IMG/VR virus record: IMGVR_UViG_3300032214_000986
Coordinates: 56,085-120,084 of that record
Direction: 5' to 3' (one strand)
Length of the DNA stretch: 64,000 bases
Source: a virus
Shown here: positions 21,233 through 63,847 of the stretch, piece after piece
Position numbering within the stretch: position 1 is the stretch's first letter
Layout of the letters: the number at the start of each line of letters is the position of its first letter
Translations under genes and position numbers: made by a program
The notes under the pieces: generated by a model
Seen by the model: only the letters and a program-made list of their open reading frames with translations
What the model was told of the DNA's origin: nothing
Databases searched by the model: none

Positions 21233-23005
21233 TTAATTTTTTAATTTTGTCATTATCTCATGAAATGAATTTGAAACTAAATGTCTATTATACCCATTAC
21301 TCACCAAAGATTCTTTCTCATCTCGTAAGTAATTTTCCAATATTTTTTTATCTGATTTTTTTGATGTGTCGAAACCTTCTAAAATAAAATTAAATCTATT
21401 GTTGATGATTAAAGACTCACTTAAATTTTGTGATTTCTTTTGGTTATGTTCTAACACAACTTTTTTTATTGTAGTTGATAGTCCCATAAGTTTTTTATTA
21501 TAAATATCTTGATTATTTAATTCTTCATTCAAATTAAGTTGATAATTTAACAAACGTCCGTTTGGATTACGCATAAGTAGAATATTTTCTTTACCTATTT
21601 TTCTAACAAACTTCTTATCGTCTTTAAATTTAGACCAACAATATTCCAAACTTTTTTTAGTCGGTTCTAATTGTGATCTCGTTTTTAGTATTTCACTTTT
21701 TAATTCGTCTTGGTGTAATTTTACTAGGTCTTTACCATAGTCAACGAATTGGTCAGTACAGAATTCTTCCATACTAACTTTACCTTTCATTTGTTCTAAT
21801 CTTCCACTTAATAAATCACTAATAGTTTTATTATACTCACTATTTTTAATACCATTAACAAACATATTATAGTACCAAGCATTGTTATATTTTTTATCGG
21901 CAATATTCATACTATTAAATTCAATAGTTTCTGTTTCACTACCTTTAAGGGTTTTATTAGGATTTAATGTTAAATTTAATTTAGTATTCGGTCCATTAAC
22001 CTCAAACTCATCAATTTTAAAAGTATATGCTTGGTCATCGGTATCACCATAAAAGGCAAACAATGAGTACTTCCCATAAATTACATCATCAAAAGTAAAC
22101 TCCCCTTGGTTATCTGAGAATGTTTCAAAAAACTGTTTACTGTTTTCTTTACTTATAATTTGTATAAATGCCTTTGGTAACACCCCAGAAAATTCTTTAG
22201 TCTTACCATCAAATTCTATGGTTGATTCGTAATATGTTGTACCAATGACATTTCCGCCTTTTTTAATCCCTAAAGACGTGTCAGTATCTACTTCAGTTTT
22301 GTTTCCTGATTTTGTTTTATTGTATTCAATTACGTTATCTATTTTCTCGCCACTTTCTAATGTTACACTAATAACACCTAATGCCGTTTGCTTAAATTCA
22401 CCCTTTAAAACTAAACCTGTTTTAGTAAATGTTATAACACCTTTACCTTGTATGTTCCCATTATAAAACGTACCTTTATAACCCATACCCATAGATTTGG
22501 AATAGACTTGCCCTTGACCTCCAATCATACCGTCAATAAATTCACCCTGATAAACCCAATCATCGGGAAGACTAACAAAATACCCTTTAGCATTTGTTAA
22601 GGTACCTTTCATAAACTTATTTCCCTTTTCCTCGTCACCTTTGAAGTATCTTGGTATTGTAAGTGGAGGTATTTCACTATAATAACTACCCTTGAAATCA
22701 CCCCTATCTCCGGTTTCACCAGTGTCAGTCTCAATCATTTTAAACTTATCAAAACAACCATTAACTGTGACATTATAACCATCTACGTTTCCGGCAAAAG
22801 TTGCCCAACCAAATTCAGGAATTTCACTTAAGGTACCAAACTTTTTTAGATTAACATAAGACCCATTACCACCACATCCTTTCCATGTACTTCGGTATTT
22901 TTCTAATTCCTCCGCAACATTAGGATCAACACTTTCAGTGACAAGATTATATCTTGATCGTATATGTTTTTTTTCCTCCTCAGTTAAATTGAATAGTTTT
23001 TTCAT
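21233..23005 (-). CDS. Leader-bearing protein with MORN repeats and a carboxypeptidase-regulatory-like domain
   Basis: 590 residues. The N-terminal leader has a helix (LTEEEKKHIRSRY) and ends NLVTE at residue 24. MORN-type repeats are visible at about 150-205 (YQGEFIDGMIGGQGQV, YKGTFYNGNIQGKGV, LKGEFKQ). A beta-sandwich like carboxypeptidase-regulatory domains follows at about 265-335 (FSDNQGEFTFDDVIYGKYSLFAF). The C-terminal 200 residues are helical and charged, and unknown. MORN repeats often bind lipid or form elongated sheets. Own TATTTAT box 6 nt before ATG. Confidence 0.6.
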   Translation of the reverse strand: MKKLFNLTEEEKKHIRSRYNLVTESVDPNVAEELEKYRSTWKGCGGNGSYVNLKKFGTLSEIPEFGWATFAGNVDGYNVTVNGCFDKFKMIETDTGETGDRGDFKGSYYSEIPPLTIPRYFKGDEEKGNKFMKGTLTNAKGYFVSLPDDWVYQGEFIDGMIGGQGQVYSKSMGMGYKGTFYNGNIQGKGVITFTKTGLVLKGEFKQTALGVISVTLESGEKIDNVIEYNKTKSGNKTEVDTDTSLGIKKGGNVIGTTYYESTIEFDGKTKEFSGVLPKAFIQIISKENSKQFFETFSDNQGEFTFDDVIYGKYSLFAFYGDTDDQAYTFKIDEFEVNGPNTKLNLTLNPNKTLKGSETETIEFNSMNIADKKYNNAWYYNMFVNGIKNSEYNKTISDLLSGRLEQMKGKVSMEEFCTDQFVDYGKDLVKLHQDELKSEILKTRSQLEPTKKSLEYCWSKFKDDKKFVRKIGKENILLMRNPNGRLLNYQLNLNEELNNQDIYNKKLMGLSTTIKKVVLEHNQKKSQNLSESLIINNRFNFILEGFDTSKKSDKKILENYLRDEKESLVSNGYNRHLVSNSFHEIMTKLKN

Positions 23006-23011
23006 TTTCTG

Positions 23012-23018
23012 ATAAATA
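23012..23018 (-). promoter_or_regulatory. TATTTAT box for the MORN-repeat gene
   Basis: Coding strand CTATTTATCAGAAA then ATG at 23005; gap 6 nt. Confidence 0.55.
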
Positions 23019-23037
23019 GTTTGGATAAGTATTAATT

Positions 23038-23903: not shown

Positions 23904-26450
23904 TTATTTTTTATATTTTTCAACAAATGTTGAAAGGTTATTATATTCTCTATCTGTATTTGTATTTAAATCTGAGAACTTAGGTGTTACCCAAACAATT
24001 TCTCCATTGTCTTTTATAGTTTCTAATACCGCACTTGTGGTTGATGGGTATTTTGTTAATGCAATTAAAACTAAATAATCCCCATCTTTAGATGTTAACA
24101 CTATTGACCCAACATCACTTTTTGGTATGTTGTTTTCGTTTACGCCACTATCTAATTTACCATATAATTGGTCTAAACTATTTAATTGAGTTAAACCTTC
24201 CGTACCCATTCTAGTCAATTCTTTTTGTTTTTCTCTTACTAATTCTAAAAAATCTTTAGGTACCTTAGGTATGTATTTTAAACTATTTTTAAGGAATACC
24301 GCATCATCTTCTGTGATATCTCCACTAGTTACCAAGCCGTCTATTCTGTTTTTAAATAACGTCATGTTATTTAAATCATTATTCTCAATTTTATTAACAA
24401 AAACCGGTTGCAACCCCCTCTTTTTTAATCTCTCATCTTTTAATTTTGCTTGGTTATAGTCCTCTTCCAAATCTTTGTTTATACTATCTGTTGTTTTTTC
24501 ATTGGCGATACGAGTAGCCATTTCCTCTTTTGTCTCACCATCACTTTTATTAGTATAACCCCATAGAGTTATTAAATCGTAAATCGTGTCATCGGCTAAC
24601 CCTGGTTGGGCTAATAGTGCCGCTTCCCACCATTCGTCGGATCCACCAATTCCAGTAACTAAAGAAATGACTCCCTTACCCATTATATGGTCTAAGACTC
24701 TCGGTCCAACATATTCACCTAAAACATTAAGTAATGGGTTGTCAGAATAAACCTTGTCTCCTTTTAGACCCTTACTTTTTATAAAACCGTCGTAAGCTGC
24801 TTCCATAAGACCCGCAGCCGTAGGTAATAAAACATAAGATATAAACATAACACCAGAAACGTATTTAGCGGTCGACGCACTAGTAAATCCTTTAGTCACT
24901 AAATACCTTTCAACATCTTTAGGTGTTCTAAAAGTACCACTAACAAATAAAGAGAAAAGCCTATCTCTATTTTTCAAAGTATTTTTTAAAATTGATTCAA
25001 ATGTTGAATTTGTAACATTGTCCAATTTTGGTGCGATTGTGGCTTCAGTTTCTTTAATACTAGCATATACATCTTTAGGTGTTTTTGTTCCTGTTGCCTT
25101 TGCACCTGCATTAAATAACTCATCTATCGATGAATAAAAATAAGTTGACTCCTGGTCTTCAATTGCCTTAACAAATAATTTAAATTGTTCTAGTTCAACA
25201 CCAGTTAATTTTGTTTCCGCATTTTTAACAAAAAGTTCCCATAGTTCTTTTAAACTCATTTCAAACCCTGTCTTAGGACTAAGAGGTGTTGATGAGTTTT
25301 TAAGTTTAACTAACTTATCTTTAATTTCTCTAATATATGTTTTATTGGCTTTACCACCTGAATTAACAAATTGACCAAAACCTGTATTGACTGCATCTTG
25401 GAATTTGTTGGAATAAAAATTAAACGTCGGGGTTAAATCACCAGTTTTTATTAAATTCTGTAATTTATATACTTGAGCCTCAAACGCGGCAATCCACCAT
25501 CTATAAAGAGGTCGATAAACATTTATATAAAATTTATCAAACCAATTATATTTTTTTGAAATTTGTTGTATGTCTTTACCAAAATCTCTTAAACTTTTAT
25601 CGTATTCTTTAAATGGATTCTTTTTACTTCCTGTATCAGAAAGTTGTTGAGGTAAGTCTAATGGTTCACGTAACTTCGGTGGTGTAATAACTCCCGCAGC
25701 ATCATCTATTCTACCTGAACTTCTAAATTGCTCAATTAGACTTTTAATCTCAGGTTCATTCTTAAATCTACCATCAAAAAAGTCTATAAATTCTTTAGCC
25801 ATGTCGTCAGTGAAGTTCGTACCTTGTCTCCCTAACGCCTTTGTACAGTAATCGTACGCCCACATTATTTGTGAGTTATTAAAATCGGTTAAATTCAGAA
25901 TTACATTAGGATTTCTAAAATTATTCTCTAATTGAGACTTCCAAAAAGCTAAAACCGCATCATAACCTCTTTGAGCGTTCGGTAATGAACCTTCCTTAAA
26001 CATTTTACTGATAACTCCCTGTGTTAATTTTTGTATTTGAGCCTCAGGAATCGTTTTCATTGCTTCCACAAATTTAGCAACATTTGGCTGTCCGCTATTC
26101 GCCACAATGTCATCTATTTTTCTACTAATTGCCAAATCATCAGCTAACTGAATTACGTTATTATCAAAATTAGTCTTAGTATATTTAGTTCTAATCGAAC
26201 TCATTAAATCACTGTTTGACTTTAAAGTTCTGATAGCATCGTCAGCTTCTTGTCTAGTCATTTTACCTTGGGCTACTAATATATCTGCAGCATCATCGAA
26301 CACATTATCTACACTTGAAGCCGTGGTTTTTATTAAATTTTTAATTAAATTAACCATAAGACCTTGTTCAGAGATAATAGGTTTAACCCCCATTAAATCT
26401 TGTATTCTAGCGACCTCATTTAATATATTAGATTTTTTCATCTTTTGCAT
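23904..26450 (-). CDS. Large leader-bearing protein, possible inner virion protein
   Basis: 848 residues from ATG 26450, or 845 from ATG 26441, which restores the usual leader length. The leader (ILNEVARIQDLMGV...PIISE) ends at E25 of the shorter form. The body is helical; a hydrophobic stretch at about 560-580 (YVSGVMFISYVLLPTAAGLM) could cross a membrane. No enzyme motif was recognised. Size, a single membrane segment and the leader would suit an injected or inner-capsid protein, but that is inference. TATTTAT box 6 nt before the first ATG. Confidence 0.55.
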   Translation of the reverse strand: MQKMKKSNILNEVARIQDLMGVKPIISEQGLMVNLIKNLIKTTASSVDNVFDDAADILVAQGKMTRQEADDAIRTLKSNSDLMSSIRTKYTKTNFDNNVIQLADDLAISRKIDDIVANSGQPNVAKFVEAMKTIPEAQIQKLTQGVISKMFKEGSLPNAQRGYDAVLAFWKSQLENNFRNPNVILNLTDFNNSQIMWAYDYCTKALGRQGTNFTDDMAKEFIDFFDGRFKNEPEIKSLIEQFRSSGRIDDAAGVITPPKLREPLDLPQQLSDTGSKKNPFKEYDKSLRDFGKDIQQISKKYNWFDKFYINVYRPLYRWWIAAFEAQVYKLQNLIKTGDLTPTFNFYSNKFQDAVNTGFGQFVNSGGKANKTYIREIKDKLVKLKNSSTPLSPKTGFEMSLKELWELFVKNAETKLTGVELEQFKLFVKAIEDQESTYFYSSIDELFNAGAKATGTKTPKDVYASIKETEATIAPKLDNVTNSTFESILKNTLKNRDRLFSLFVSGTFRTPKDVERYLVTKGFTSASTAKYVSGVMFISYVLLPTAAGLMEAAYDGFIKSKGLKGDKVYSDNPLLNVLGEYVGPRVLDHIMGKGVISLVTGIGGSDEWWEAALLAQPGLADDTIYDLITLWGYTNKSDGETKEEMATRIANEKTTDSINKDLEEDYNQAKLKDERLKKRGLQPVFVNKIENNDLNNMTLFKNRIDGLVTSGDITEDDAVFLKNSLKYIPKVPKDFLELVREKQKELTRMGTEGLTQLNSLDQLYGKLDSGVNENNIPKSDVGSIVLTSKDGDYLVLIALTKYPSTTSAVLETIKDNGEIVWVTPKFSDLNTNTDREYNNLSTFVEKYKK

Positions 26451-26476: not shown

Positions 26477-28570
26477 TTAGTACGTCATTTTGTACTTACC
26501 AAATATTTCATTAAATTCTTCCTCTGACATATCATCAGTATTTTTTAAACTATTAGTTACGTCTTTAACTAGTTTATCTCTATTCGTTTTATCTTGTTCA
26601 AGAGCATCCTCAACTAATTTTTCGTCTAATAATAATTTATCTTTTTCTTTTAGGTATTTATCATATGCAGACTTAACTTCAGCAATCCTTAATTCATCAA
26701 AGTTTTCACCTGTAATATTTTTAATTGTGCCGTATTTTTTACTTTTCAAATCATTTATTAATTGGGTAAGTGTATCTGAACCAACGACACCGTCTACTTT
26801 TAAACCGTTTTGTTTTTGATATAACTTAACAAGTTCTTCAGTTGCTTTATCGAAGGTACCGTAGTTTACTGACCCTATTTTTCCAAAACCAAATGCTCCT
26901 GATTTTGTAATATCTTTACCAACAAATAATTTAACATTATGTGTTGTTTGGTCAAACATAGTAACTCTCATTATTACAACACTTTTTAAATTACCAAAAT
27001 TATATGTAAGAACTTTTGAGTTATTACTATTACTTATGGTTTTAATTAATTTACCTGTTGACGTATACAATGAAATATTATTAATATTTTCAGAATTATT
27101 AATAGTTAATACGTTATTTTTAATATTATAATTAGGAACTTTTAAGTTTGTGTCTAATTTTGCAGCAATTAAGATAAATTGGATTATCAATACGTCCGTA
27201 TTGTAATAACCATATTTAGTACTATATGATTTATTTTCGTTTTTTGCTTTTCGTAACTGTTGAATAAATAACGAGTTGTCTGTCTTAACTGATTCTAATT
27301 TGTCTTTTACTGCGGCAATTTCACAAGGACTGGTGAATGGTTGTACATACTTACCTGCCTCCCCAACCGCTTTTAATATTTTCCAATCAGACTGAGTTAA
27401 CGCTTCTAAAGGTATCGTATTACATATACCCATATGTTTAGCAATTGCATCCCATGTATAAAATGAACCACCAATTTGTAAACCTAACCTTGTGGTAAAA
27501 TTGGCACTTAATCGTCCCGTTTTTATTAATTTTAATATGAACTTTAAAATATCGCTAGATTTTGCAGATTTACTTATTAATTGTTTGGTAAACTGTCTAG
27601 CCATACCTATCTTAGAAAGTCTAGTGTACTTACCTCCGTTAGCGGTAACATTTGCTGCTAACTCAAGTTCACCTTTACTAAAGTTAGTTTGTTTTAGTGC
27701 GATTTTTTTGATTAATGATGGTCCATATTTAGCAACTAACATTTCCAAACCACTGTCTAAAGGACCCGCAAATGCAAATATTAATGCCAATCCAGCCGCG
27801 TAATCATTTTCGTCAGCATATTTGTAAATCGCAGCATCCAAAGACTCAATACCAAATGATAATGCCGACCTAAGTAACCACGTCCCAATACCCACACCAG
27901 GTATAAATGATGTCGCAATAGACACAAGAGGTAAAACAATATGTGCCACTTCTCTTGTAAAAGGTGGAAGGATTTCTTTAGCTGTTGAGTCGAAAGGGAC
28001 CTCAAAATCGTAAGTCTCATTAGGATTAAATTTTTGTAACACCTTTTGGTACTCCTCCAACCAATAATCATTAAATTGCCATTGCATTTCTTGACCAAGA
28101 CCTGTTGGTGAGTTTCTTTTCCACTCGGACCCCCAAGAACCTAATGAAAATTCCTGACCTTGTATAAATTGTAGAACGGTTTTACCTTGTTCTTGTGGGT
28201 AACACCCATATATAAAAACAAGTAATATTACGTAGGCTTCTTTTGATTTTATTAATTTTAAGGCGTCTAAGATAATATCTTCTTTAGTCCCATTAGTATC
28301 GATTTGTCCTTTTAAGATTAAAAATACTTTCTTTGCTGTTTTTTCAAAATCTTTAGTAAGTGGTGCATTTAAAAGTGCTTTACAATTCTGTTCTATTTTT
28401 TTTTCAGTTTCTCTTTTTTCCCTATCAGCCTTTATCTCTGCATCGCTTTTACCAGGTGTTGTGCCGAAGTTTGGTGCACCAATAACAGATTGTTCAGATA
28501 ATGTCTTAGATCTCTCATAACTGATTAATCTAATTTGTTTTAATATGTCTTCACTTATTAATTTATCCAT
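26477..28570 (-). CDS. Leader-bearing protein with hydrophobic region and peptidoglycan-binding domain
   Basis: 697 residues. The leader ends RSKTLSE at residue 26. Residues about 205-285 are strongly hydrophobic and glycine-rich (IVLPLVSIATSFIPGVGIG; LALIFAFAGPLDSG), possibly two or more membrane segments. A PG_binding_1-like helical domain sits at about 580-635 (VKLYQKQNGLKVDGVVGSDTLTQL). The last 60 residues are charged coils. Its start overlaps the preceding stop (TAATG). Membrane plus wall-binding parts suggest a role in crossing the envelope, which is inference. Confidence 0.55.
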   Translation of the reverse strand: MDKLISEDILKQIRLISYERSKTLSEQSVIGAPNFGTTPGKSDAEIKADREKRETEKKIEQNCKALLNAPLTKDFEKTAKKVFLILKGQIDTNGTKEDIILDALKLIKSKEAYVILLVFIYGCYPQEQGKTVLQFIQGQEFSLGSWGSEWKRNSPTGLGQEMQWQFNDYWLEEYQKVLQKFNPNETYDFEVPFDSTAKEILPPFTREVAHIVLPLVSIATSFIPGVGIGTWLLRSALSFGIESLDAAIYKYADENDYAAGLALIFAFAGPLDSGLEMLVAKYGPSLIKKIALKQTNFSKGELELAANVTANGGKYTRLSKIGMARQFTKQLISKSAKSSDILKFILKLIKTGRLSANFTTRLGLQIGGSFYTWDAIAKHMGICNTIPLEALTQSDWKILKAVGEAGKYVQPFTSPCEIAAVKDKLESVKTDNSLFIQQLRKAKNENKSYSTKYGYYNTDVLIIQFILIAAKLDTNLKVPNYNIKNNVLTINNSENINNISLYTSTGKLIKTISNSNNSKVLTYNFGNLKSVVIMRVTMFDQTTHNVKLFVGKDITKSGAFGFGKIGSVNYGTFDKATEELVKLYQKQNGLKVDGVVGSDTLTQLINDLKSKKYGTIKNITGENFDELRIAEVKSAYDKYLKEKDKLLLDEKLVEDALEQDKTNRDKLVKDVTNSLKNTDDMSEEEFNEIFGKYKMTY

Positions 28571-28968
28571 TACTTGTAATTTTTTCCTGTTGGTCCCATT
28601 GTTCTACCCGACGCCCATTTTGTTGGACCTATTGGGTTACCTTTACCTCTCGTTGTTTTATCTTCACGTTTTGCACTTGTAATTGGATTTCCAGGACCTC
28701 TAACCGCACCGGTTTCCCATGGAGTCATAGAGCTACCTGTATCCGATGAGGTATCAGTAGTTGTGTCAGTTGTTTCTGGTGTGTCTTCTTGCTCAACTAT
28801 TTCCTCATCCATACCGTCCACAGCATTATCGTCATCCGTAGGACCTGTTTGTTTGATTTGTTGGTCACTACCTGTTTTAGCCCTATTTAATTGAACGTCA
28901 ATGTTAGGTGCCTCGTTTAGAAACATTATATTTCTAATACGCATGATATTTTCTTGTAGGTTTTTCAC
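28570..28968 (-). CDS. Short leader-bearing disordered protein, GTG start
   Basis: 132 residues. It starts with GTG at 28968; no ATG fits, and the box lies 5 nt upstream. The leader (NIMRIRNIMFLNE) ends at residue 19. The rest is low-complexity: an acidic and Thr-rich segment, then GNPI/GPT-type repeats rich in Gly, Pro and Lys (RGPGNPIT, RGKGNPIG). No fold is expected for most of it. Translation is coupled to the 697-residue gene through TAATG. Confidence 0.55.
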   Translation of the reverse strand: MKNLQENIMRIRNIMFLNEAPNIDVQLNRAKTGSDQQIKQTGPTDDDNAVDGMDEEIVEQEDTPETTDTTTDTSSDTGSSMTPWETGAVRGPGNPITSAKREDKTTRGKGNPIGPTKWASGRTMGPTGKNYK

Positions 28969-29000: not shown

Positions 29001-30368
29001 TTAACCTTTATATTGTAAATGGAAATGGGGGCCTGTAGACGCATCTGAAGGATTCAGATACTCATCAATATATCCAAATCCCGAATATAGATCTTTATAG
29101 TTGTCCATTAGTTTTTTAAATCCGGAATGAAACTGTGAACCTAAAGTTAAATCCAACGCTCTACCTTTTGTATGTAAACTCTCATACTCCAAGTTATGGT
29201 GGAAATTATCATTACCACTTGTAATGTATATGTCCGCATTAGGCTCAATTTCTTGATAATCTTTTAGTAATTCCAAAACAATACCTAAGAAAGTACCATT
29301 AAGTTCACCACCACTATTTACATCTTCACCATTATTTTTTAATCCAAACCCTAATGATTTAATATTCGATTTGAATTCATCTGCCCCGACTGTTTTTGCA
29401 TCTTTTTCAATCTCATCTTCATTAGGAATTTCACCCATTAAAAATTTAGATAAATCATTATCATCAAAGCCTTTAATTTTTAATTCATAAAAAATAGATT
29501 CTAATGTTTCATCATCGGCAACACCAGTCATGGACAATCCGTTATCTGCTTGGAAATCCCTAACAGCTCTTTCAGTATTTTGGGTGTACCGACCATCAGT
29601 ATTAATATTACTATACCCTAAGAACTTTAAAGCCACTTGTATCATTTCAATATCACCCATATAATCAGAAGACATGTCGGTACTATAGTCATTACCTGAA
29701 TTAACAATATCCTCAAAATTTTCTAAAAATTCATATATGGTATCAAAATCGGCGTCTTCATCAATATCTAAATCAACAAAAACCTCTGGTTTCATTAATG
29801 GTTCATTATCAATAGTTGCGATATCTGACATTGGTGAAATAAATGCATCTATATATGATTTTAAGTTAGATATTACTTTACTACCTTTAATTAGTCTTTC
29901 ATCTCCAATTAAAGGGTAGTCCCCAACAACTTTAACTTTATCTTTTTTAATTAAATTGTAAAATACGATTGCGTTTTCTTCTAACTCTAAAACCTCATCT
30001 TCAGTTAAATCATATTCATCGATATCTATATACCCCTTCATTAAGTATAATTCGGCGTTAGGAAAAACCCTAAACATTTCATTAATTAATGTTGTTATTG
30101 ATGAATCAGGTTCAAACATATCGTTAGTACCAATAGAGAAAAATACCTGATTAATATTTTCATATGGCTCGTGAACTACCAATTTTTCAGTTAGTTCATC
30201 TATTGTCATTTCAGGGTCGATTAATTCAAAAGGACGTAATAAGTCAGAATTATCAAGGAGATATGCAATTTGGTCTCCAATAACTGCCACCGATGGGTTG
30301 TTTTGGAAATCTTCGTTAACCGCCATCATAGTTTTTATCCTACTGATTTGGGAAATAAATTCGTTCAT
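29001..30368 (-). CDS. Leader-bearing SGNH-like / peptidoglycan-binding / M15-like peptidase protein
   Basis: 455 residues in four parts. The leader (ISRIKTMMAVNE) ends at 19. Residues about 25-190 look like an SGNH fold (SVAVIGDQIAYLL, FFSIGTNDMF); the usual GDS block reads GDQ, so the nucleophile serine seems lost. A PG_binding_1 domain lies at about 240-305 (IQVALKFLGYSNINTDGRY). The C-terminal part from about 345 resembles M15/VanY-type D,D-peptidases: SLHTKGRALDL supplies H and D, and GPHFHLQY the second H. A peptidase acting on wall peptides is likely; the SGNH part may only bind. It is the last gene of a five-gene operon. Confidence 0.6.
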   Translation of the reverse strand: MNEFISQISRIKTMMAVNEDFQNNPSVAVIGDQIAYLLDNSDLLRPFELIDPEMTIDELTEKLVVHEPYENINQVFFSIGTNDMFEPDSSITTLINEMFRVFPNAELYLMKGYIDIDEYDLTEDEVLELEENAIVFYNLIKKDKVKVVGDYPLIGDERLIKGSKVISNLKSYIDAFISPMSDIATIDNEPLMKPEVFVDLDIDEDADFDTIYEFLENFEDIVNSGNDYSTDMSSDYMGDIEMIQVALKFLGYSNINTDGRYTQNTERAVRDFQADNGLSMTGVADDETLESIFYELKIKGFDDNDLSKFLMGEIPNEDEIEKDAKTVGADEFKSNIKSLGFGLKNNGEDVNSGGELNGTFLGIVLELLKDYQEIEPNADIYITSGNDNFHHNLEYESLHTKGRALDLTLGSQFHSGFKKLMDNYKDLYSGFGYIDEYLNPSDASTGPHFHLQYKG

Positions 30369-32615: not shown

Positions 32616-34187
32616 ATGGAAGAAGATAAAAAAATATTAGAAGAAATAACACGAATTAGTTTTTTAACCAATTATGACCCTAAAAAAGTTATAAGTGAAC
32701 AAAAAACTAAGAAGGGCGGTTTTAGTCTTGGTGGTGAATTTGGTAATAAAGAATTTAATTTTAGAGGTAGACAAAGAGATCCAGGAAGAATGAGTCTTGA
32801 TTTTAGTTATGAAAAAGAACTAGATAAAGGTTTAGATACTGTTGGCGATGTGTTAGGTAAAATGAATGCGGAATTAGGGGGTGATACAGAGTTTAAAAAT
32901 CTACCAACTGAAACTAAAAATATGTTAGCAAATGGATTTTATAATGCGATTACATTATTAATTAATGGTCAAAAATTACCTAAAGAAGACAAAGAAGGTC
33001 TTAAAAAAATTAAAAAATTCTTTAAGAAATCACAAAAATGGAAATTTGATATTATTACTCCTGACGATGCAATTTCTACAGTAGACATTAAAGTTAGCGG
33101 TAAGGGTGATATGTCATCTTTAGATACTTTAAATTCTGTGATGACTAGTGAGATAACAAACCTTAATAACAGTAACTCTAATGAAGGGACAATTTTAAGT
33201 AAAACTGCAAGTTATTTTTCATATGATAAAAAATCAGGAGACGTTAATTCTTTACCATTACAAAAATCTGTAATGTCAACATTATTTGCAAGGGCATCAA
33301 GACCATTAAAAACTAAAGAACTTTCACCAGAAAACGTGATTAATGAAACAGGAGAACTTAATGTTGTGATGCCACGTATACCTGGAAAATATGCAAAGGG
33401 GTCATCCGATCCTGGTATGTTTTTTAAAGGTCTTATGGATAGAATTTTAAATGAAATTTATCAATCGGAAGTTACTATTGGTGGTGAAACTAAAACAGTT
33501 AAAGAGATGATTGAGTGTGGGACCGATAACTGTGACTCTCAATACCGTATAAGTGTAACCGATGCAACTATAGTATCATCGGCAAGTAATACGTGGACGA
33601 ATGAGGTTTTAGATTTTACTCACAAAAATAATGGTGATAAAATTAAAGATGTTACCGAAATATCAAGTTCAGGTAAAAACCCTAAAAATCTTAAACTAGC
33701 AAGAGATAGAGCTAATAACTTAATACAGTTAGTTATGCAAGATTTAGGTAAAACCCCTGGGTTAAATTTATCATCGAATTGGGCGAATAGTATTGAAACG
33801 GAACTTAGAATTACAGATACAGGTGGTAAAGTAGATGAAGAAAGAGATAAAACACAATACCCTAATGCGGGACAGTACTCCGAAATATCAATAGGATTTA
33901 TGGTTTATAAAACATCTAAAAGAACTGTTAGCGCAAGTAACCAACTTAGTGGTACAATATCACAAAGAATAATTGTACTTAGATATGTTGGTGGTAAGGC
34001 TGCTAATATTGAACTTGATTTTAATTTTGAAATGCCGACTAAGAACGAATCACTTTATTTAAGGAAAGGTATATTCCATTTAAAAAATCTATCCCCTGGT
34101 ACTACTGAACGTAGAACACAGAAATTATATAATAAAAGAGATAGGGACTTTGAAAGAAATAGAAAGGCAAATAACCCAGGACGTTAA
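32616..34187 (+). CDS. Leader-bearing protein of unknown function
   Basis: 523 residues. The leader (ILEEITRISFL...KVISE) ends at 28, followed by a Gly-rich stretch. The central part is mixed; ARDRANNLIQLVMQ near 370 recalls OmpA-type helices, though the match is weak. The C-terminus is basic (ERRTQKLYNKRDRDFERNRK). It is one of few leader genes on the plus strand, and ends at a shared bidirectional terminator. Probably a virion component. Confidence 0.5.
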   Translation: MEEDKKILEEITRISFLTNYDPKKVISEQKTKKGGFSLGGEFGNKEFNFRGRQRDPGRMSLDFSYEKELDKGLDTVGDVLGKMNAELGGDTEFKNLPTETKNMLANGFYNAITLLINGQKLPKEDKEGLKKIKKFFKKSQKWKFDIITPDDAISTVDIKVSGKGDMSSLDTLNSVMTSEITNLNNSNSNEGTILSKTASYFSYDKKSGDVNSLPLQKSVMSTLFARASRPLKTKELSPENVINETGELNVVMPRIPGKYAKGSSDPGMFFKGLMDRILNEIYQSEVTIGGETKTVKEMIECGTDNCDSQYRISVTDATIVSSASNTWTNEVLDFTHKNNGDKIKDVTEISSSGKNPKNLKLARDRANNLIQLVMQDLGKTPGLNLSSNWANSIETELRITDTGGKVDEERDKTQYPNAGQYSEISIGFMVYKTSKRTVSASNQLSGTISQRIIVLRYVGGKAANIELDFNFEMPTKNESLYLRKGIFHLKNLSPGTTERRTQKLYNKRDRDFERNRKANNPGR

Positions 34188-37360: not shown

Positions 37361-37438
37361 GTAAAAATATATGATATATCAAACCACCAGGATAGTATAA
37401 TTTTCAAAGGGGGTTGTTTAATTATTATTAAACCATGA

Positions 37439-37445
37439 TATTTAT
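37439..37445 (+). promoter_or_regulatory. TATTTAT box for the NlpC/P60 gene
   Basis: ATATTTATTATT then ATG at 37450; gap 4 nt. It shows that the ATG at 37435, inside the element, is not the start. Confidence 0.6.
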
Positions 37446-37449
37446 TATT

Positions 37450-38022
37450 ATGTCTAAAATATCACTGTTAAAAAATCTATCAGACTTACTTGTAGAACAA
37501 GGAGGTAAGTATGGTGAAATGATTGATCCGTCAACAGGAAAAAAGGTTGGAGATGCTATCGGGTCTTTAGATTTAACAGACCCATCAAATGTAACTAAAA
37601 GAACACCTAAAAATTTAAAATATAGTGAGACGGGTCAGTCAATAGTGGATGCTGCCGTAACCCAATTAGGTAAACCTTATAGTTGGGGTGATGAAACACC
37701 TGAAGAAGGATTTGATTGTAGTGGGTTAGTTACTTGGGCTTATAATCAGGCAGGTGTAACCATACCAAGAGGAACGGCAGAAAGTTTACGAAACCAAGCA
37801 AAGGTTGTTGATAAAAGCGAAGTTGTTCCAGGTGATATGATATTTTTTGATAATGGACCGAGTAGGGCAGGTGCTGACCACATAGGTATAGTCCACTCAA
37901 TTGATGGTGAAAAAATAAATATGATACACTCAGAAAGTACCGCAACGGGAGTTAAGATAACTAACGATATTTTAAACGGTTATTATGGCGGTACGTTTAT
38001 GAATTTCGGAAGAATAGAGTAA
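37450..38022 (+). CDS. Leader-bearing NlpC/P60 peptidase
   Basis: 190 residues from ATG 37450. The leader (SLLKNLSDLLVE) ends at 16. The NlpC/P60 domain covers about 65-190: GKPYSWG, EEGFDCSGLVTWAYNQAG with catalytic Cys90, VVPGDMIFF, and DHIGIVHSI with catalytic His144. These enzymes cut the D-Glu / diamino acid bond of wall peptides. With a leader it could be virion-borne and help local wall opening during infection; this is inference. Confidence 0.85.
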   Translation: MSKISLLKNLSDLLVEQGGKYGEMIDPSTGKKVGDAIGSLDLTDPSNVTKRTPKNLKYSETGQSIVDAAVTQLGKPYSWGDETPEEGFDCSGLVTWAYNQAGVTIPRGTAESLRNQAKVVDKSEVVPGDMIFFDNGPSRAGADHIGIVHSIDGEKINMIHSESTATGVKITNDILNGYYGGTFMNFGRIE

Positions 38023-40585: not shown

Positions 40586-40879
40586 TTAGTCTTCAGGAAA
40601 GATACTACTTTTAACTCTGACACCTTTTGGTAATTCAAAATCAGTTCTTCTTGTTCTTTCTTGTCTTTTATATCTTTCAACAGGGAATTCACTATTTAAT
40701 TTGTTTAATTCAACAATATAGTCTGTCCCATGTTCATTTATTCTATTAATTACGTCATCAACCAACTCAGTTCTTTCAGATGCTGATATTCCGGTTACGA
40801 AATCTTCATTTTCATTAACAATATTTTTAACAATTCTGTTAATTTCCGTTTCTGTGATTCTTTTTATCATTTTTTTCAT
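40586..40879 (-). CDS. Leader-bearing small protein, LTESEL type
   Basis: 97 residues. The leader (RITETEINRIVKNIVNE) ends at 23. The remaining 74 residues contain a helix (SERTELVDDVINRINEHG) and a basic, Arg-rich segment (RYKRQERTRRTDF). Unknown. It starts 2 nt after the stop of the 426-residue gene. Confidence 0.5.
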   Translation of the reverse strand: MKKMIKRITETEINRIVKNIVNENEDFVTGISASERTELVDDVINRINEHGTDYIVELNKLNSEFPVERYKRQERTRRTDFELPKGVRVKSSIFPED

Positions 40880-47215: not shown

Positions 47216-47485
47216 TTAATAAATTTTATTAACTACTCTTAATTTTTGTCCCACATTTAAGTAACTATTAGTCAATCCATTTAACTTTTGGATGTCCGTA
47301 ATAGTAACTCCGAATGCTTTAGCGATTAATAACATTTCATCTCCACTTTTCACTGTGTAATATCCTGTCTTTTTACCTTTCGCTATTTCCTCAGGTGTTG
47401 GCTTTCTTCTGGTGTTTTGTTCACTTATAACATTTTTAACCAAATCGATTAATTCTGTTTCTGTCAATCTAATAATGTTTTCCAT
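47216..47485 (-). CDS. Leader-bearing LysM protein
   Basis: 89 residues. The leader (IIRLTETELIDLVKNVISE) ends at 22. A single LysM domain fills residues about 42-87: GYYTVKSGDEMLLIAKAFGV, then ITDIQKLNGL and LNVGQKLRVV. LysM binds peptidoglycan. With the leader removed, the product is little more than a wall-binding module. Box 13 nt upstream. Confidence 0.8.
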   Translation of the reverse strand: MENIIRLTETELIDLVKNVISEQNTRRKPTPEEIAKGKKTGYYTVKSGDEMLLIAKAFGVTITDIQKLNGLTNSYLNVGQKLRVVNKIY

Positions 47486-50382: not shown

Positions 50383-50868
50383 TTATTTAATTTTTGTTCT
50401 ACTTACGTTAGAAATTAACCCACCCGCAACTGTCGCAGTACCTGCAGCCATTGCCAATGCCATTTCTAAAATATCTTCAGCACCAAGACCACCCGCCATT
50501 GGGATTGCCATAATTGCTCCCGCAAGTGCTCCAAGACCTAAAGTAGTCAACTTTCTTCTCCAATACTCGTTTTTAGAAATTTCTTTTGGTTGAGCGTCAG
50601 TATAATCTTTGTATTCGTAATCTTCATTCAAACTACCATCAAGTTCTTGACCCAACTCATTAGCCAATTCTGGATTATTTTCAAAAAATCTAACAATTCT
50701 TTGAAAGTGTTTATCGTTTGCTATTTCTTGAGGGATTTCCATTTTAGAAAAATCCGTCTCATCTTCCATTTCTCGTGAATCATCAACCCATTGGTCTTCA
50801 TCTTCTTTGATTAGAGTTTCTACCAAGTTTATTAACTCACTTTCTGTTAGTCTAATTAATCTTTCCAT
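50383..50868 (-). CDS. Leader-bearing protein with a hydrophobic C-terminal region
   Basis: 161 residues. The leader (LIRLTESELINLVETLIKE) ends at 22. An acidic middle is followed by two hydrophobic, Gly/Ala-rich segments at about 108-130 (LTTLGLGALAGAIMAIPMAGG) and 133-152 (DILEMALAMAAGTATVAGGL), which could form a membrane hairpin. Holin-like topology is possible but the leader argues for a virion or injected protein. Box 18 nt upstream. Confidence 0.55.
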   Translation of the reverse strand: MERLIRLTESELINLVETLIKEDEDQWVDDSREMEDETDFSKMEIPQEIANDKHFQRIVRFFENNPELANELGQELDGSLNEDYEYKDYTDAQPKEISKNEYWRRKLTTLGLGALAGAIMAIPMAGGLGAEDILEMALAMAAGTATVAGGLISNVSRTKIK

Positions 50869-50907: not shown

Positions 50908-51216
50908 TTATTCTGCAAGTGACATGAAATAATCTTTCATTTTAGAATAGTAATTAGTCTCGACATACCTTTGGATTTGGTTTCTCAATGTGACCTTTTC
51001 ATCGTTATCTAAAAATGATTCATTATTAATAATGGTGGAGGCCAATTTATAAGCAACAATTTGTTTAAAATCGGCAAAGTTTCTTTTATCCAATGGAAAA
51101 CTTTGTTCCCCTTGAATAAATTTATAAACAGAATCCATAATAGGTTCAACCATAGAATCAATTTGGGATGATCTACGAATTAAACGATATTGATTTTCTG
51201 TAATTATAATTTTCAT
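50908..51216 (-). CDS. Small helical protein with IITENQ N-terminus
   Basis: 102 residues. It starts IIITENQYRLIRRSSQ, the same opening as two other leader genes, but lacks a clear [ILV]xE end. The body (DFKQIVAYKLASTIINNESF... TLRNQIQRYVETNYY) is homologous to part of its upstream neighbour (SYVTLRNQIIQFVKNHFYEE), so the two are tandem paralogues. Overlaps the neighbour's stop by 4 nt (ATGA). Confidence 0.6.
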   Translation of the reverse strand: MKIIITENQYRLIRRSSQIDSMVEPIMDSVYKFIQGEQSFPLDKRNFADFKQIVAYKLASTIINNESFLDNDEKVTLRNQIQRYVETNYYSKMKDYFMSLAE

Positions 51217-51854
51217 ATATTATCCTCCTCATTAAAATACATGTCAATAATATCAGAAAAAGTTAAACCCATTACATCAATACCGAGTTCTTCAATTATT
51301 TCATTATCAACATAATCAAATCCTTCTTCATCAATAAACCACTCAAATTCACCTCTGTCTTGATAAAGGAATTTCTTACCATTGATATTAACAAGATACA
51401 TCGGACCCCAATGGTTCAAAAACCTTCTAATCGATTCAGGACCAATACCCTCGTCAAATGACATTGGGACATCATACGATGAGGTTATTTGTTCAATACC
51501 ATTTGTAAAATCAATATTAAGTTCGTCTTTTAAAAACCTTTTGCTTTTTTCCTTTGGTGATACATTTTCAGAAATACGGTTTGTTCGTCTTTCCCACCAT
51601 TCTTTATATTCTTCATAAAAATGATTTTTAACGAACTGAATAATTTGGTTTCTAAGAGTAACATATGAATCTTGATCCATCTTTGTTCTATCTATCATAT
51701 CAACAGCAATGTCCCAACACAATCCTTGAAAGAAGCTTTCAAAAGTATCAAATGCAGTAATATTATGTACCAACAAGTAGTTATCAAAAAGTTCCTTGAT
51801 TCTTCCGTATCTTCTAAGAATGGCGTTTTGTGATTCCGTTATAATTACTCTCAT
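51213..51854 (-). CDS. Leader-bearing protein, paralogue of the 102-residue protein
   Basis: 213 residues. The leader (VIITESQNAILRRYGRIKE) ends at 21. Residues about 25-90 match the smaller neighbour downstream (TLRNQIIQFVKNHFYEEYKEW). The C-terminal half (GPESIRRFLNHWGPMYLVNI; GKKFLYQDRGEFEWFIDEEG) is extra. No function recognised. Confidence 0.6.
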   Translation of the reverse strand: MRVIITESQNAILRRYGRIKELFDNYLLVHNITAFDTFESFFQGLCWDIAVDMIDRTKMDQDSYVTLRNQIIQFVKNHFYEEYKEWWERRTNRISENVSPKEKSKRFLKDELNIDFTNGIEQITSSYDVPMSFDEGIGPESIRRFLNHWGPMYLVNINGKKFLYQDRGEFEWFIDEEGFDYVDNEIIEELGIDVMGLTFSDIIDMYFNEEDNI

Positions 51855-52404: not shown

Positions 52405-52644
52405 TTAATCTTTCAATCTATAATCTCTAAAACGAGATACCGCATCACGTTTTACTCTTCTATCTGATGTCATTTCATCGGCAATGTTTCTTAAAATACT
52501 AACGGCTTCTTCGTGACTTGCATTAGAGTTTCTTATAACGTCCATAATATCGGAGTATAAAGTATTATCTTCCATCTCCTCACTAACAATACGGTTAACA
52601 AGATTTGTTAATTCTGATTCGGTTAATTTAATTACTTTTTTCAT
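52405..52644 (-). CDS. Leader-bearing small protein, LTESEL type
   Basis: 79 residues. The leader (VIKLTESELTNLVNRIVSE) ends at 22. The remaining 57 residues are one or two helices (ASHEEAVSILRNIADEMTSD) with a basic end (RRVKRDAVSRFRDYRLKD). Unknown. Confidence 0.55.
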   Translation of the reverse strand: MKKVIKLTESELTNLVNRIVSEEMEDNTLYSDIMDVIRNSNASHEEAVSILRNIADEMTSDRRVKRDAVSRFRDYRLKD

Positions 52645-53916: not shown

Positions 53917-54288
53917 CTATTTAAGTCGGGATTTATTAATCCTTAATAAGAACTTTTCAGCTTCCTCTACATGAATATCCTCCAAGTAGTCTTCCAATTC
54001 TTCGGTGTCCCCAATATAAGACATAATAGGTATTGTTGTTTCCATTGGTAGAGTCATAAACTTAAATTCAAGTTCCCCATCTTCATCAATCTCCCAATAA
54101 CAATTAGATGTTCCAGCAAGAGGAGTCATATCATCATCGTAGTTCTTTGGAAAGAATGTGACATAGGTTTGAAATTGATTATCTCCACGATATGTGGAAC
54201 CCTCCCCTTCAATATCATAGTACTTGGAAATAAGTCTAACCGACTTATTGGTCTCTTCTTTTAAAATATGTTTGATGAGGTTTTTCAT
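53917..54288 (-). CDS. Leader-bearing protein, short (I/R)xILKE type
   Basis: 123 residues. The leader NLIKHILKE ends at 11. The rest includes YDIEGEGSTYRGDNQFQTYV and a beta segment (NCYWEIDEDGELEFKFMTLP), then the helix VEEAEKFLLRINKSRLK. Unknown. Box 6 nt before the ATG. Confidence 0.55.
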   Translation of the reverse strand: MKNLIKHILKEETNKSVRLISKYYDIEGEGSTYRGDNQFQTYVTFFPKNYDDDMTPLAGTSNCYWEIDEDGELEFKFMTLPMETTIPIMSYIGDTEELEDYLEDIHVEEAEKFLLRINKSRLK

Positions 54289-58303: not shown

Positions 58304-58984
58304 TTATTGGTAATCAGGATTATCTAACATTGTTTTGTAATATGGTGTACCATCGAAATCTTTTTTACGAGGTTCTGTCGGTAAATCAGTTTTGGTATCA
58401 TCTACCTTTGTTGGTTCTTCTACCTTTTCTTCTAATGTGGGATATTCGTTAAGTGTATATTTGTAGAATATCTGTTTAACTCTACATCCTGTCTTAGGAT
58501 TATGAATTAATATCTTTACAGGAACCATTTCATCTACTGTCCCCCTCTTTTTAATGTAGTTAGATGTCTTAGATTGTTCTATGCTCGCATGTCCTGAAGT
58601 CGTACTAATACTATCAGGGTATGCACCAGGTTTTGATTTTGCACCACCACCTCTACTATATATTCCTATCCACGCATTACCATCTTCACTTTTATTAATT
58701 GTGACAGACCATTTTACTTCCATAGTATTACTATTCATAACAACATCTACTGCTGTGATATCAGGGTTAAAACCTTTTTTATAAACATCCATTAATACTT
58801 CATTAACCTTTCTGTTCATTCCCCCGATTTCTTTTTTTCCGTTGTCATTAAACGAATGGAAACTATCGCAATCGTCTTTCCCTACTTTGTAGTTACCACT
58901 AACAGTTATTGGGAATGTAACCTCATCTTCTGTGATTACTCCCATCATTGATTTAATTCTTAATACTTCTTCGTGCAATTTCAT
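58304..58984 (-). CDS. Leader-bearing protein, RIKSMMG type
   Basis: 226 residues. The leader (EEVLRIKSMMGVITE) ends at 19 and closely resembles that of the M15-like protein (SRIKTMMAVNE). The body is mostly beta (FPITVSGNYKVGKDDCDSF; MEVKWSVTINKSEDGNAWIG), with two Cys; the C-terminus is a Lys/Pro-rich linker. Unknown. Box 4 nt before the ATG. Confidence 0.55.
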   Translation of the reverse strand: MKLHEEVLRIKSMMGVITEDEVTFPITVSGNYKVGKDDCDSFHSFNDNGKKEIGGMNRKVNEVLMDVYKKGFNPDITAVDVVMNSNTMEVKWSVTINKSEDGNAWIGIYSRGGGAKSKPGAYPDSISTTSGHASIEQSKTSNYIKKRGTVDEMVPVKILIHNPKTGCRVKQIFYKYTLNEYPTLEEKVEEPTKVDDTKTDLPTEPRKKDFDGTPYYKTMLDNPDYQ

Positions 58985-60717: not shown

Positions 60718-61419
60718 TTATACTCGACTATATCCGTTTACTTTATCGACTTTCTTATTGAACATCTTTTCAAATATTTTACCCATCATTTCACTATCAC
60801 GATGCAATAATCTATCATCACCAATCACATTATAAATATCTTCAGCAAAAAACCTGCTATACTCTAATCTTTTATACTTAGGATAATATTTCATAATTGG
60901 GGTGTTCCACACACCTGTATAATCCGTTTCATAATAAGTTATTTCACCATAATCATTCGAAGCAAAATCTATTGAATAATATTCTTCAATAAACTTAACT
61001 AAAACATTCACTAACCTATCGTCTTTGGTTAATGGTTTTTTACCAAACATGTTTTTAAATTTGTCAAGTATTTTTGACTCTTTTAAGTTTCTATAATCTG
61101 AACATTTAGGTGTATCACTAAAAGTAACAAAGAAGGGTATTGGAAAATAATCGTAAACTTCCTCTTTAATTTTTCTTCTTAATTGATTAATGTAATTTCT
61201 AATTCGAAAATCGGTACCATTAAACTTGTTATCTAAATCTTTATTACCAACCTTAACATTAATTAAATATGTATCTTCATCAGGTTTATAACTTATTTTG
61301 ATATCGCAAACACAATCTTCGTTTTTGTATACTTCGGTTAAATCCTCTAACGCATTGGTGTATTTACCTTGATTGGTCTCTTCTTTTAATATCTTTCTTA
61401 TTTGTTCTTGTAGATTCAT
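60718..61419 (-). CDS. Leader-bearing protein, fusion form of the small paralogue pair
   Basis: 233 residues from ATG 61419 (MNLQEQIRKILKE), which overlaps the preceding stop (TAATG). The leader ends at 13. The N-half (CDIKISYKPDEDTYLINVKV; RRKIKEEVYDYFPIPFFVTF) follows the MKDLT-type plan. The C-half (PLTKDDRLVNVLVKFIEEYY) matches the separate protein at 59000-59299. Function unknown. Confidence 0.6.
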   Translation of the reverse strand: MNLQEQIRKILKEETNQGKYTNALEDLTEVYKNEDCVCDIKISYKPDEDTYLINVKVGNKDLDNKFNGTDFRIRNYINQLRRKIKEEVYDYFPIPFFVTFSDTPKCSDYRNLKESKILDKFKNMFGKKPLTKDDRLVNVLVKFIEEYYSIDFASNDYGEITYYETDYTGVWNTPIMKYYPKYKRLEYSRFFAEDIYNVIGDDRLLHRDSEMMGKIFEKMFNKKVDKVNGYSRV

Positions 61420-61985
61420 TACTTTGTCTTCTTCACACAATTGGGATATCGTTTACCGAACATTGTCTTCATACCTTTTTGGGTATATCCTTTCCAACAT
61501 TTTTCCGTTAGTTCTTCCTCTTTCACTTCACTCTTTTTACGTCTACCCGCACAGTGAGCTTTCTGACTAAAACCTTTTGGATTACTACAGTTAATGGATT
61601 TTTTATATTTTTCAGACCATTTTTCAGATAGTTCACCTTCTTCATCAATATCTTCTCCAAAATTATCGATATATCTATCTTTAATCTCATTGTGAAAGTG
61701 TTTTGAAAGGAATTTATAAACCTCATCATATGGGAAATCGTTTGACCCTCCATTCGATAAGACATCATGATAATCATCCATAAGATAATCAATGGCCCGA
61801 TTTTTAAAATCTTTAAATGTAAAAACAACACCAGCATTACGTCTGTTTAAAAATAGATTGGTAACGAAATTTAAATTCTCATAGAACTCTTTTTCCATTA
61901 AACGTAAGTCAACTCTTCTACGAAAGAATGTTGATTCATTGACCGTTTCTCTTAATACCTTTCTTATATGATCTTGTAGGTTCAT
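61419..61985 (-). CDS. Leader-bearing protein with CWKGY-type C-terminal motif
   Basis: 188 residues. The leader NLQDHIRKVLRE ends at 13. The C-terminus has NCSNPKGFSQKAHCAGRRKK and EKCWKGYTQKGMKTMFGKR followed by PNCVK, a Cys-containing motif I recall from proteins of large and T4-like marine phages. The middle is helical. Likely a structural protein; the Cys pairs may bind metal. Box 4 nt before the ATG; first gene of the pair. Confidence 0.6.
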   Translation of the reverse strand: MNLQDHIRKVLRETVNESTFFRRRVDLRLMEKEFYENLNFVTNLFLNRRNAGVVFTFKDFKNRAIDYLMDDYHDVLSNGGSNDFPYDEVYKFLSKHFHNEIKDRYIDNFGEDIDEEGELSEKWSEKYKKSINCSNPKGFSQKAHCAGRRKKSEVKEEELTEKCWKGYTQKGMKTMFGKRYPNCVKKTK

Positions 61986-61989
61986 AGTA

Positions 61990-61996: not shown

Positions 61997-62263
61997 TTAC
62001 TCAGTTTGGTATTCGCTAACTTGAGTGTAAATCATACATCTATCCCAATCCAAATTAAAATAACCTTTAATTCCATTCATTAAATCACCTCTGTCGATAC
62101 CTTTGTTGATTGTGGCGTAAAGTCCGTCGGTTGGTTTTACATATATGAATATGTGGACTTTATATCTTGTTGGTGATTTTATTACTTGCACCAAAATATC
62201 GTCTCTGTGTGATAGATGGTTATACACATATTGTTCTATTACTTTTGATAAATCCTTTTCCAT
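61997..62263 (-). CDS. Small paralogous protein, MEKDLSKV type
   Basis: 88 residues with the helix-strand-helix-strand plan of the local family (KDLSKVIEQYVYNHLSH; YKVHIFIYVKPTDG; RCMIYTQVSEYQ). Preceded by an exact host-type -7 box. Confidence 0.55.
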   Translation of the reverse strand: MEKDLSKVIEQYVYNHLSHRDDILVQVIKSPTRYKVHIFIYVKPTDGLYATINKGIDRGDLMNGIKGYFNLDWDRCMIYTQVSEYQTE

Positions 62264-62271
62264 ATCAAAAG

Positions 62272-62304
62272 CAAAGATAATAAAATTATTTGATTAATCC
62301 CAAA
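62272..62304 (-). promoter_or_regulatory. Host-type promoter of the MEKDLSKV gene
   Basis: Coding strand TTTG, 21-nt spacer, TATCTTTG, then 8 nt to the ATG at 62263. Confidence 0.55.
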
Positions 62305-63847
62305 AACCCCCTTCAATTACTTCCATCATCCAAGAAATAATTGATAGTAACTCGTCATTAGTTAGGTTGTTAATCGTTGTTAGATATTGGTCTTTTTGTT
62401 CTCTATGTCCATATTCATCAAGATGATATTCCCACATCTCAATGGCAATAGAATCTTCATCATGTACTAATATGTCCTCAACATATTTGGTATCGCTCAA
62501 TGGTATTTGAACGGCAAAAATAGAACCATAATTTTCACCATTAGACCCACCCTTTTCTAAAACAAATTCTCTAATATATTGTTTTAGTAGTTCTTTGGGG
62601 TTACCCATTTTATTTAAGATTGATTTTACTTGATTAAAATCTAACCCTGACATCTTTATAAAATCATATAAACCGTATTGATATATAAGTTTTTGTAATG
62701 ATTGTTCTTTATTTTCTGTTTCATATAATCTTCTACCTCGACACTTATTTATCCAAAGTTCTAAAGTTTCATTGTAGTACCTATCTTTAATATAGTTTTC
62801 AATATAAGGTATTGATTCCTCCCACTCTTCATAAGTTACAGTTTCATAGAACCAAGCATGATACAAGTCTTCTAATGTACGTTCAAGAAGATAATTCATA
62901 AGGTGATCAGGATGTCTAAAAGAACAATAGTTTATATTTTTTCTTTTACCTTTGAAGAACATATCAAAATACTCATTTCTTCGTCTAACTTGTGCGGGTA
63001 CAGATTCATTCATGAACTTAACCTCATCCTCACAATTATCAACATACCACGGTGTATAAATATAAACTCTAATTCCCATAGAACTTATTGAAGAATTCAA
63101 AGACTCTAATTCTTCTTCGATTTTAAAAATTGAAGGTCCTAAGTCATTTGATGTAACAGTTTTTGATCGTATATCATATTCCTTATCATCAGGATTGTAT
63201 TCTACCCATATATCACAAAGTCCGTCCCAACTAACTAAAGATAACAATACATTTATTGCCCTTAAATTTTTGTCGATTTCATTATTATCACTTTCATTTA
63301 AACTTTCAGACTCACCATAAAGTTTATCGTGTAAATATTCGATATCATCTTGATCAAAAGAAATAACCTCATCTATTGAATCAATGTCTTCACCATTTAA
63401 CTTTTTAACGGTAAGATAATTTACATTGAATAATCTACTATCTTCAAACTTACTTATAAATCCACTATGTTGTGCCTCATCAACTAAATACTTAATCATC
63501 TGTTTGAATGTATCATTTTCTTCAGGATCTAATTTGTTCTCATCATAAAAAACATTTATATCAGGCCAATGGTTGGTATTATGAACATTACTATGTCTAT
63601 TAATTATTTCATACTTTAAAGGAAATTCTATATCATCGTTATACCCAAAAGAATAATAAAAAGTAATTGTCCCTGTTAGTTTATCGAATAAAGAACTCAG
63701 TTCAGGATCATCTTTGAATATACTTTTAAGATTACTCATTCCTCCAACTAAATCGGCCGCCTTAAATATATTATCATCCTCAATAATTTTTTTTAATGAT
63801 TGTTGGATGTTATTCTCTTTTAAGATATGTCTAATTAGTTCTCTCAC
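62294..63847 (-). CDS. Large leader-bearing protein, GTG start
   Basis: 517 residues. It starts with GTG at 63847, which overlaps the stop of the preceding gene (GTGA). The leader RELIRHILKE ends at 11. The body is helical and acidic, with SMGIRVYIYTPWYVDNCEDE and a segment RTLEDLYHAWFYETVTYEEW; no family recognised. No TATTTAT box, so it depends on upstream transcription. Confidence 0.55.
   Translation of the reverse strand: MRELIRHILKENNIQQSLKKIIEDDNIFKAADLVGGMSNLKSIFKDDPELSSLFDKLTGTITFYYSFGYNDDIEFPLKYEIINRHSNVHNTNHWPDINVFYDENKLDPEENDTFKQMIKYLVDEAQHSGFISKFEDSRLFNVNYLTVKKLNGEDIDSIDEVISFDQDDIEYLHDKLYGESESLNESDNNEIDKNLRAINVLLSLVSWDGLCDIWVEYNPDDKEYDIRSKTVTSNDLGPSIFKIEEELESLNSSISSMGIRVYIYTPWYVDNCEDEVKFMNESVPAQVRRRNEYFDMFFKGKRKNINYCSFRHPDHLMNYLLERTLEDLYHAWFYETVTYEEWEESIPYIENYIKDRYYNETLELWINKCRGRRLYETENKEQSLQKLIYQYGLYDFIKMSGLDFNQVKSILNKMGNPKELLKQYIREFVLEKGGSNGENYGSIFAVQIPLSDTKYVEDILVHDEDSIAIEMWEYHLDEYGHREQKDQYLTTINNLTNDELLSIISWMMEVIEGGFWD

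Follow-up and report, generated by a model that had tools for sequence, protein, structure and literature searches.

Capsid-targeting sequences have been described for T4, P1 and giant phages. The T4 tag is a short N-terminal propeptide that a gp21-family protease cuts off after L/I-x-E and that can be moved to foreign proteins; the T4 capsid protein itself loses 65 residues, with gp21 again cutting after L/I-x-E (PMC9026906). In the jumbo phages phiKZ, 201phi2-1 and SPN3US a gp21-like protease cuts many head proteins after glutamate; phiKZ and 201phi2-1 have at least 19 such proteins (PMC10052503). The cleavage motif is A-x-E in SPN3US and S-x-E in phiKZ, and the propeptides, often longer than 100 residues, have not been presented as tags common to several proteins (PMC5694885). 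The N-terminal 30 residues of P1 DarB are enough to bring a reporter to the capsid (PMC9024508); DarB differs from the proteins discussed here in being a single protein with another assembly pathway and, as far as the accessible part of that source goes, no reported [ILV]-x-E end. Flavobacterium phage immuto (NC_055915), a cultured relative with gp23, gp20 and gp21 homologs, has leaders of its own that end in IxE, many of them encoded close to the head genes (e.g., MENFDLKKFLVENKLTTNSKILKE/NS and MKKQILSEQFRRMQKLAGIITE/SQ, where the slash, here and below, marks the predicted cut).

The window analyzed here is a stretch of 64,000 nucleotides (C1:56085-120084 of a 120,084-base IMG/VR virus record); L001-L003 are labels for the remaining 56 kb of the record, outside the window. 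The record comes from a large, uncultured T4-like phage with hundreds of relatives, which appears to carry removable N-terminal tags on more than 20 unrelated proteins. Its likeness to T4 (IPI, IPII, IPIII, Alt) lies in the leader end and in the presence of gp21, gp23 and gp20 homologs. However, in T4 a handful of proteins are tagged, with what is essentially a single type of tag 10-19 residues long, whereas the 120-kb fragment of this phage encodes about 25 leadered proteins whose leaders fall into several classes and span 8-38 residues, and its 229-kb relative G002 has 24 profile-supported N-termini. The original prediction of a number and diversity far larger than in T4 therefore holds against T4, but the number alone is not unprecedented, given the counts in phiKZ and 201phi2-1. 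Unlike the propeptides of phiKZ and SPN3US, the leaders here are short and shared and have I, L or V at P3. Compared with this phage, immuto has fewer leaders, of different classes, and lacks class A. What is new is the shared, portable tags with their number and diversity, as cleavage as such is already known; the leader sequences were not found described in the literature searched.

The leaders were grouped into class A (MKKxIRLTESDLxxIVKRVIxE/, 22 residues), class B ([IV][ST]ExE+xxILxxH...xxE/, 24-36 residues), class C (xxILxEIxRxxxLMGx...xSE/, 17-28 residues), class D (MxNIExYKxRFxxLMESxxGDVKPLINE/, 28 residues) and the short class E (MxxLIKKILKE/, 10-16 residues). IMG/VR was searched for class A, the commonest leader, with a degenerate DNA pattern in which RLTESDL and IVK alone were fixed and the cut-site positions were free. 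Among the matches listed, 86 of 87 distinct in-frame matches were N-terminal, nearly all starting 5-6 residues after the Met, and E was found at position 17 (70) or 13 (16) in 86/86. In the main form, again among the matches listed, position 15 (P3) was I, L or V in 70/70 and position 17 (P1) was E in 70/70, while position 16 (P2) was free (K, N, S, E, M, R and others); from position 18 onward the top residue never exceeded 30% and conservation was at background. The bodies attached to class A leaders formed at least 64 groups mutually unrelated at E 1e-3. Judged from these alignments, the pattern is that of a transplanted tag with a terminal protease site.

Shared residues in class A leaders used identical codons in 58% of cases against 47% expected from codon usage, a scrambling which indicates that the likeness is maintained at the protein level with no recent DNA copying. 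Recent gene duplication or 5'-end recombination leaving functionless similar N-termini would account for tandem leadered genes such as G002:50164 and 50713, but with codons scrambled and bodies unrelated by BLAST the chance that it explains the leaders is close to nil. The class A profile had no match in T4 or in immuto. Neither did tblastn with a 23-residue leader against cultured phages, although a query so short may be below sensitivity. The tags of T4-like phages diverge, and leader homology to T4 tags is not a defining feature; at the sequence level, the lack of T4 homology in class A makes it less likely that the tag as such shares ancestry with that of T4. Class E is the sole class that resembles the short T4 tag, judged by eye.

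All ORFs and N-termini of the original prediction were found where it had placed them. Class A leaders begin the proteins at 40586..40879 (-, MKKMIKRITETEINRIVKNIVNE/NE), 47216..47485 (-, MENIIRLTETELIDLVKNVISE/QN, with a LysM domain) and 50383..50868 (-, MERLIRLTESELINLVETLIKE/DE), each supported by the class profile, and at 52405..52644 (-, MKKVIKLTESELTNLVNRIVSE/EM, 45.0 bits). Class B leaders were assigned to 21233..23005 (-, MKKLFNLTEEEKKHIRSRYNLVTE/SV, 23.3 bits), with a body weakly MORN- or CarboxypepD_reg-like, and 42550..43713 (-, MGRQFIITENDKQRILSLYGLINE/ET, 27.3 bits). Class C comprises 23904..26450 (-, an 848-aa ORF with MKKSNILNEVARIQDLMGVKPIISE/QG from an internal ATG at 26441, 25.6 bits), 26477..28570 (-, ...YERSKTLSE/QS, PG_binding_1, 23.8 bits), 32616..34187 (+, ...YDPKKVISE/QK, 38.1 bits) and 42162..42524 (-, ...KAGKVISE/QE, 40.2 bits), and in short form 28570..28968 (-, MKNLQENIMRIRNIMFLNE/AP, 12.0 bits; VLE/D in the G002 ortholog), 29001..30368 (-, MNEFISQISRIKTMMAVNE/DF, PG_binding_1, 10.2 bits) and 58304..58984 (-, MKLHEEVLRIKSMMGVITE/DE, 18.4 bits). 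With the 697-aa protein of 26477 as query, a search for close relatives returned an identical contig and nothing else. The short class E leaders are those of 53917..54288 (-, MKNLIKHILKE/ET, 13.0 bits), 60718..61440 (-, MNLQEQIRKILKE/ET from an internal ATG, MNLQEQ..., 10.6 bits), 61419..61985 (-, MNLQDHIRKVLRE/TV, 9.4 bits) and 62294..63847 (-, GTG start, MRELIRHILKE/NN, 8.7 bits). Three further leaders are supported by orthologs that retain a cut site at the corresponding junction with the body: 37435..38022 (+, starting at the internal ATG 37450, MSKISLLKNLSDLLVE/QG), an NlpC/P60 peptidase (Pfam E 6e-20) to which a G002 protein with the leader end IINE/Q is similar; 38152..38616 (-, MITKKELIKKGFSSSSLVSE/QE), with a Dps-like body (DUF5856 / PHROG 858); and 40882..42162 (-, 38 residues, end KLNE/AP). 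The protein at 38644..39198 (-) has a short leader (MKIIITESQYRFLVE/NT) on a DUF6576 body. The weakest of those listed are 51213..51854 (-, IITES-type, MRVIITESQNAILRRYGRIKE/LF, 7.1 bits) and 50908..51216 (-, IITEN-type, 8.3 bits), the latter without the terminal E, as had been stated, and either degenerate or uncut there.

Because [ILV]-x-E is a common motif, the set could in principle have been hand-picked from chance occurrences. The bare motif ending at residues 10-38 was indeed mildly enriched, in 67 of 124 proteins against 52.3 +/- 4.7 for random internal windows, and this nearness to background makes single leader calls from the motif alone unreliable. With P1' restricted to QENDSTA, the count was 44 against 24.3 +/- 3.9 internally (0/2000). 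A motif-free test counted pairs of unrelated bodies with similar first 31 residues (score >= 45) and gave 15 pairs in this genome and 32 in G002, against 0-2 among internal segments in each case. Class HMMs for this genome, built solely from leaders of relatives, recovered 23 N-termini at >= 7 bits (1.7 internal, 0.65 shuffled per set) and 16 at >= 11 bits (0.0 internal, 0.05 shuffled); the reverse profile test found 24 in G002 against 0.0 and 0.6. Twenty of the profile-supported N-termini here had been listed in the original prediction, namely 19 of its 22 plus 50908, and its claim of 22 unrelated proteins with such leaders is borne out far above chance. The motif-free tests, the cross-genome tests and the IMG/VR profile refute chance for the set as a whole, leaving it a very slight probability, though single short class E leaders could be chance. 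Signal peptides, which we considered as an identity for the leaders and rejected, sit on separate ORFs (57170, 35108 and 31926) and are noise in the motif-free test. Rfam gave no match on two GC-rich gene-poor islands.

Leadered genes are concentrated beyond C1:77 kb (22 of 57, against 3 of 75 before it), and two of the three before it flank the capsid gene block; beyond the window and close to the head genes, extra leaders are found at L003:14412-14900, L002:13685-14410 and L002:13227-13688.

Comparison with relatives showed that orthologs retain the cut site while the leader class changes, and that different leaders on one body all stop before the same body residue. On the 40882 body the leader is 38, 8 or 17 residues long and always stops before AP, and the 38644 body has a 15-residue leader here (IITESQYRFLVE) and leaders of another class, 21-22 residues long, in G001 and G003. 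The predicted cuts in DUF5856 orthologs are VSE/Q, ILE/Q, VVE/Q, LWE/Q and IYE/Q, again with P2 free. Leaderless DUF5856 homologs that start right at the body occur in MW202520, MW202483, MW202484 and OR003940, and KX815270 has a different short N-terminus before the body; no gp21 was detected in these five small phages. Nor was gp21 found in the seven contigs with a leadered DUF5856, which are fragments of 20-153 kb. In a single predicted structure, that of the Dps-like protein 38152, the leader region was mostly of low confidence and did not bear out the helical character that the original prediction gave to the leaders.

The search of the rest of the genome for a gp21-like protease that had been proposed as a check was positive. 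L002:18276-18983, about 18 kb upstream of the window, encodes a Peptidase_S77 (PF03420, the T4 gp21 family; E 4.4e-24) with HPE and SSRG motifs invariant among relatives. The Gp23 capsid gene (E 6e-72) adjoins it, Portal_T4 (gp20, E 1e-75) is near, and the ORF L002:16344-17915, considered as a candidate for the gp22-type core scaffold and without a Pfam or PHROG match, lies between the protease and capsid genes in T4-like order. Aligned to T4 residue 65, the capsid maturation site reads INE/A in this phage, INE in G001, VSE/A in immuto, LME/T in RM378 and LTE65/A in T4. The capsid site is thus itself [ILV]-x-E, and the recognition sequence that it implies for the protease is the motif at which the leaders end. 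Sequence comparison is enough to show that the leaders exist, that they are modular and end in a fixed cut-site consensus, and that the genome encodes the protease together with a capsid site of matching sequence. The capsid search gave at least 599 relatives. The protease is encoded in 15 of 18 other leader-bearing contigs (95-410 kb), each with 1-14 class A leaders; the three contigs without gp21 (99-214 kb) are also without gp23, so that the head module is missing.

The leaders might instead be real but uncut by the head protease, serving as localisation, membrane-binding, degradation or host-complex-binding signals with [ILV]-x-E as part of a helix cap. Their basic, amphipathic character would suit such a role, and cleavage itself is deduced. 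However, invariant P3 and P1 around a free P2, the loss of conservation right after E, the identity of the leader end to the capsid maturation motif and the leaderless homologs of phages without gp21 make this improbable.

Leaders occurring equally on early cytoplasmic proteins, which the original prediction had named as evidence against itself, were not seen in G002, where no leader was found on primase, SbcC/D-like, DnaB, RecA-like, exonuclease, sigma-70 or DnaJ proteins or on DNA methylases. Phage-nucleus import signals were rejected as an explanation, given the T4-like head lineage and the replication proteins without leaders. The S77 protease, the capsid INE site and the leader-free replication and transcription proteins all support the proposed reading as T4-like capsid-targeting propeptides. 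From the sequences and these analyses together, we consider it likely that the leaders, which about 25 proteins carry here, are T4-type capsid-targeting propeptides expanded into several classes.

Most leadered proteins have no known domain. For the 38152 DUF5856 body, PHROG 858 (a starvation-inducible regulator) was matched at E 1.4e-24; a sequence search against solved structures gave no match, but fold comparison of the body's predicted four-helix bundle did, with Dps proteins as the best, though modest, PDB matches (E 0.01-0.1, TM ~0.5-0.7). Cell-wall-type domains were found on 37435 (NlpC/P60), 47216 (LysM), and 26477 and 29001 (PG_binding_1), and leadered proteins in relatives include a phage lysozyme (G001:26906), a DHH plus SET protein (G002:216449) and a PAP2 protein (G002:5040). 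As a counterpoint to a cargo role, the DHH plus SET protein resembles an enzyme able to act anywhere.

Some of these proteins could be structural (core, neck or internal scaffold), with gp21-cleaved propeptides acting in folding, inhibition or assembly and not in targeting, and with little injected. The proteins of 23904, 26477 and 32616 are large and conserved in relatives, as structural parts would be, and gp21 also cuts T4 core proteins (PMC9026906). Yet 64 or more unrelated bodies, many of them small and of sporadic occurrence, share one leader, and leader classes are swapped on one body, which an address tag fits better; a structural role for the propeptides therefore seems unlikely.

Under the capsid-targeting interpretation, each leader would bring its protein to the prohead core during head assembly, after which the gp21-family protease would cut after [ILV]-x-E and the leader would be lost. 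The mature body would remain in the head with the DNA and be ejected with it into the next host. We infer cleavage in vivo, packaging and injection by analogy with T4. Dozens of unrelated proteins have acquired leaders of these classes, among them a Dps-like protein and proteins with peptidoglycan-binding or -cleaving domains.

On balance, it seems probable that in widespread, uncultured, mostly jumbo T4-like phages a few interchangeable N-terminal tags form a general cargo-loading code for dozens of proteins per virion (a Dps-like DNA protector, peptidoglycan hydrolases, uncharacterized effectors), and that the tag alone may predict the injected proteome. If so, a 22-residue tag would make finding injected phage proteins a sequence search, and new interchangeable packaging tags would be available for loading proteins into phage heads. 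In a phage group abundant in metagenomes and without a close cultured member, dozens of hypothetical proteins per genome would then be labelled as virion cargo, likely acting in the first minutes of infection, in host takeover, counter-defence, DNA protection or wall digestion.

The nearest long relatives span 229-294 kb, and the 120-kb source record is therefore probably a fragment. Two window proteins were found at 100% identity on a 78-kb contig, IMGVR_UViG_3300034198_015519 (L118, L120), which, given this identity, probably represents the same virus in a separate assembly.

A leadered protein of 748 aa in the 229-kb relative (L103:1949-4195; G002:216449) contains a SET domain and a DHH phosphoesterase-like region, a combination that is unusual in phage. 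In another genome, a 609-aa frame (G027:C1:265860-267608) matched the Gp21-like protease in two pieces, and a class A leadered ORF starts 57 bases downstream of it.

The protein at window 30676-31173 has a class B-like N-terminus (16.3 bits) that lacks the terminal [ILV]-x-E, and a clear end site is likewise absent from its orthologs in the related genomes G001 and G003; this N-terminus is possibly a tag that stays on. Near the terminase gene, outside the window, the protein at L003:5149-5697 (C1:43149-43697) begins with 38-39 residues ending in RISE, with Q following the predicted cut. The corresponding segment of its G002 ortholog ends in KIVE, again before Q, and these N-termini may constitute an additional leader class. 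Glycosyltransferase and sugar-nucleotide genes form large arrays at window 986-10110 and, elsewhere in the record, from L001 5585 to L002 6874, and no leaders were found in either array. Two gene-poor islands (window 54400-54800 and 55600-56000; 41-42% GC vs. a 31% background) contained no tRNA, Rfam match or convincing ORF.

The body of the leadered protein at window 38152-38616 is a Dps-like DUF5856 / PHROG 858 domain. A leaderless homolog directly follows the portal gene in MW202483 and OR003940, both podovirus-type genomes, a position hinting at a general role of this body with packaged DNA.
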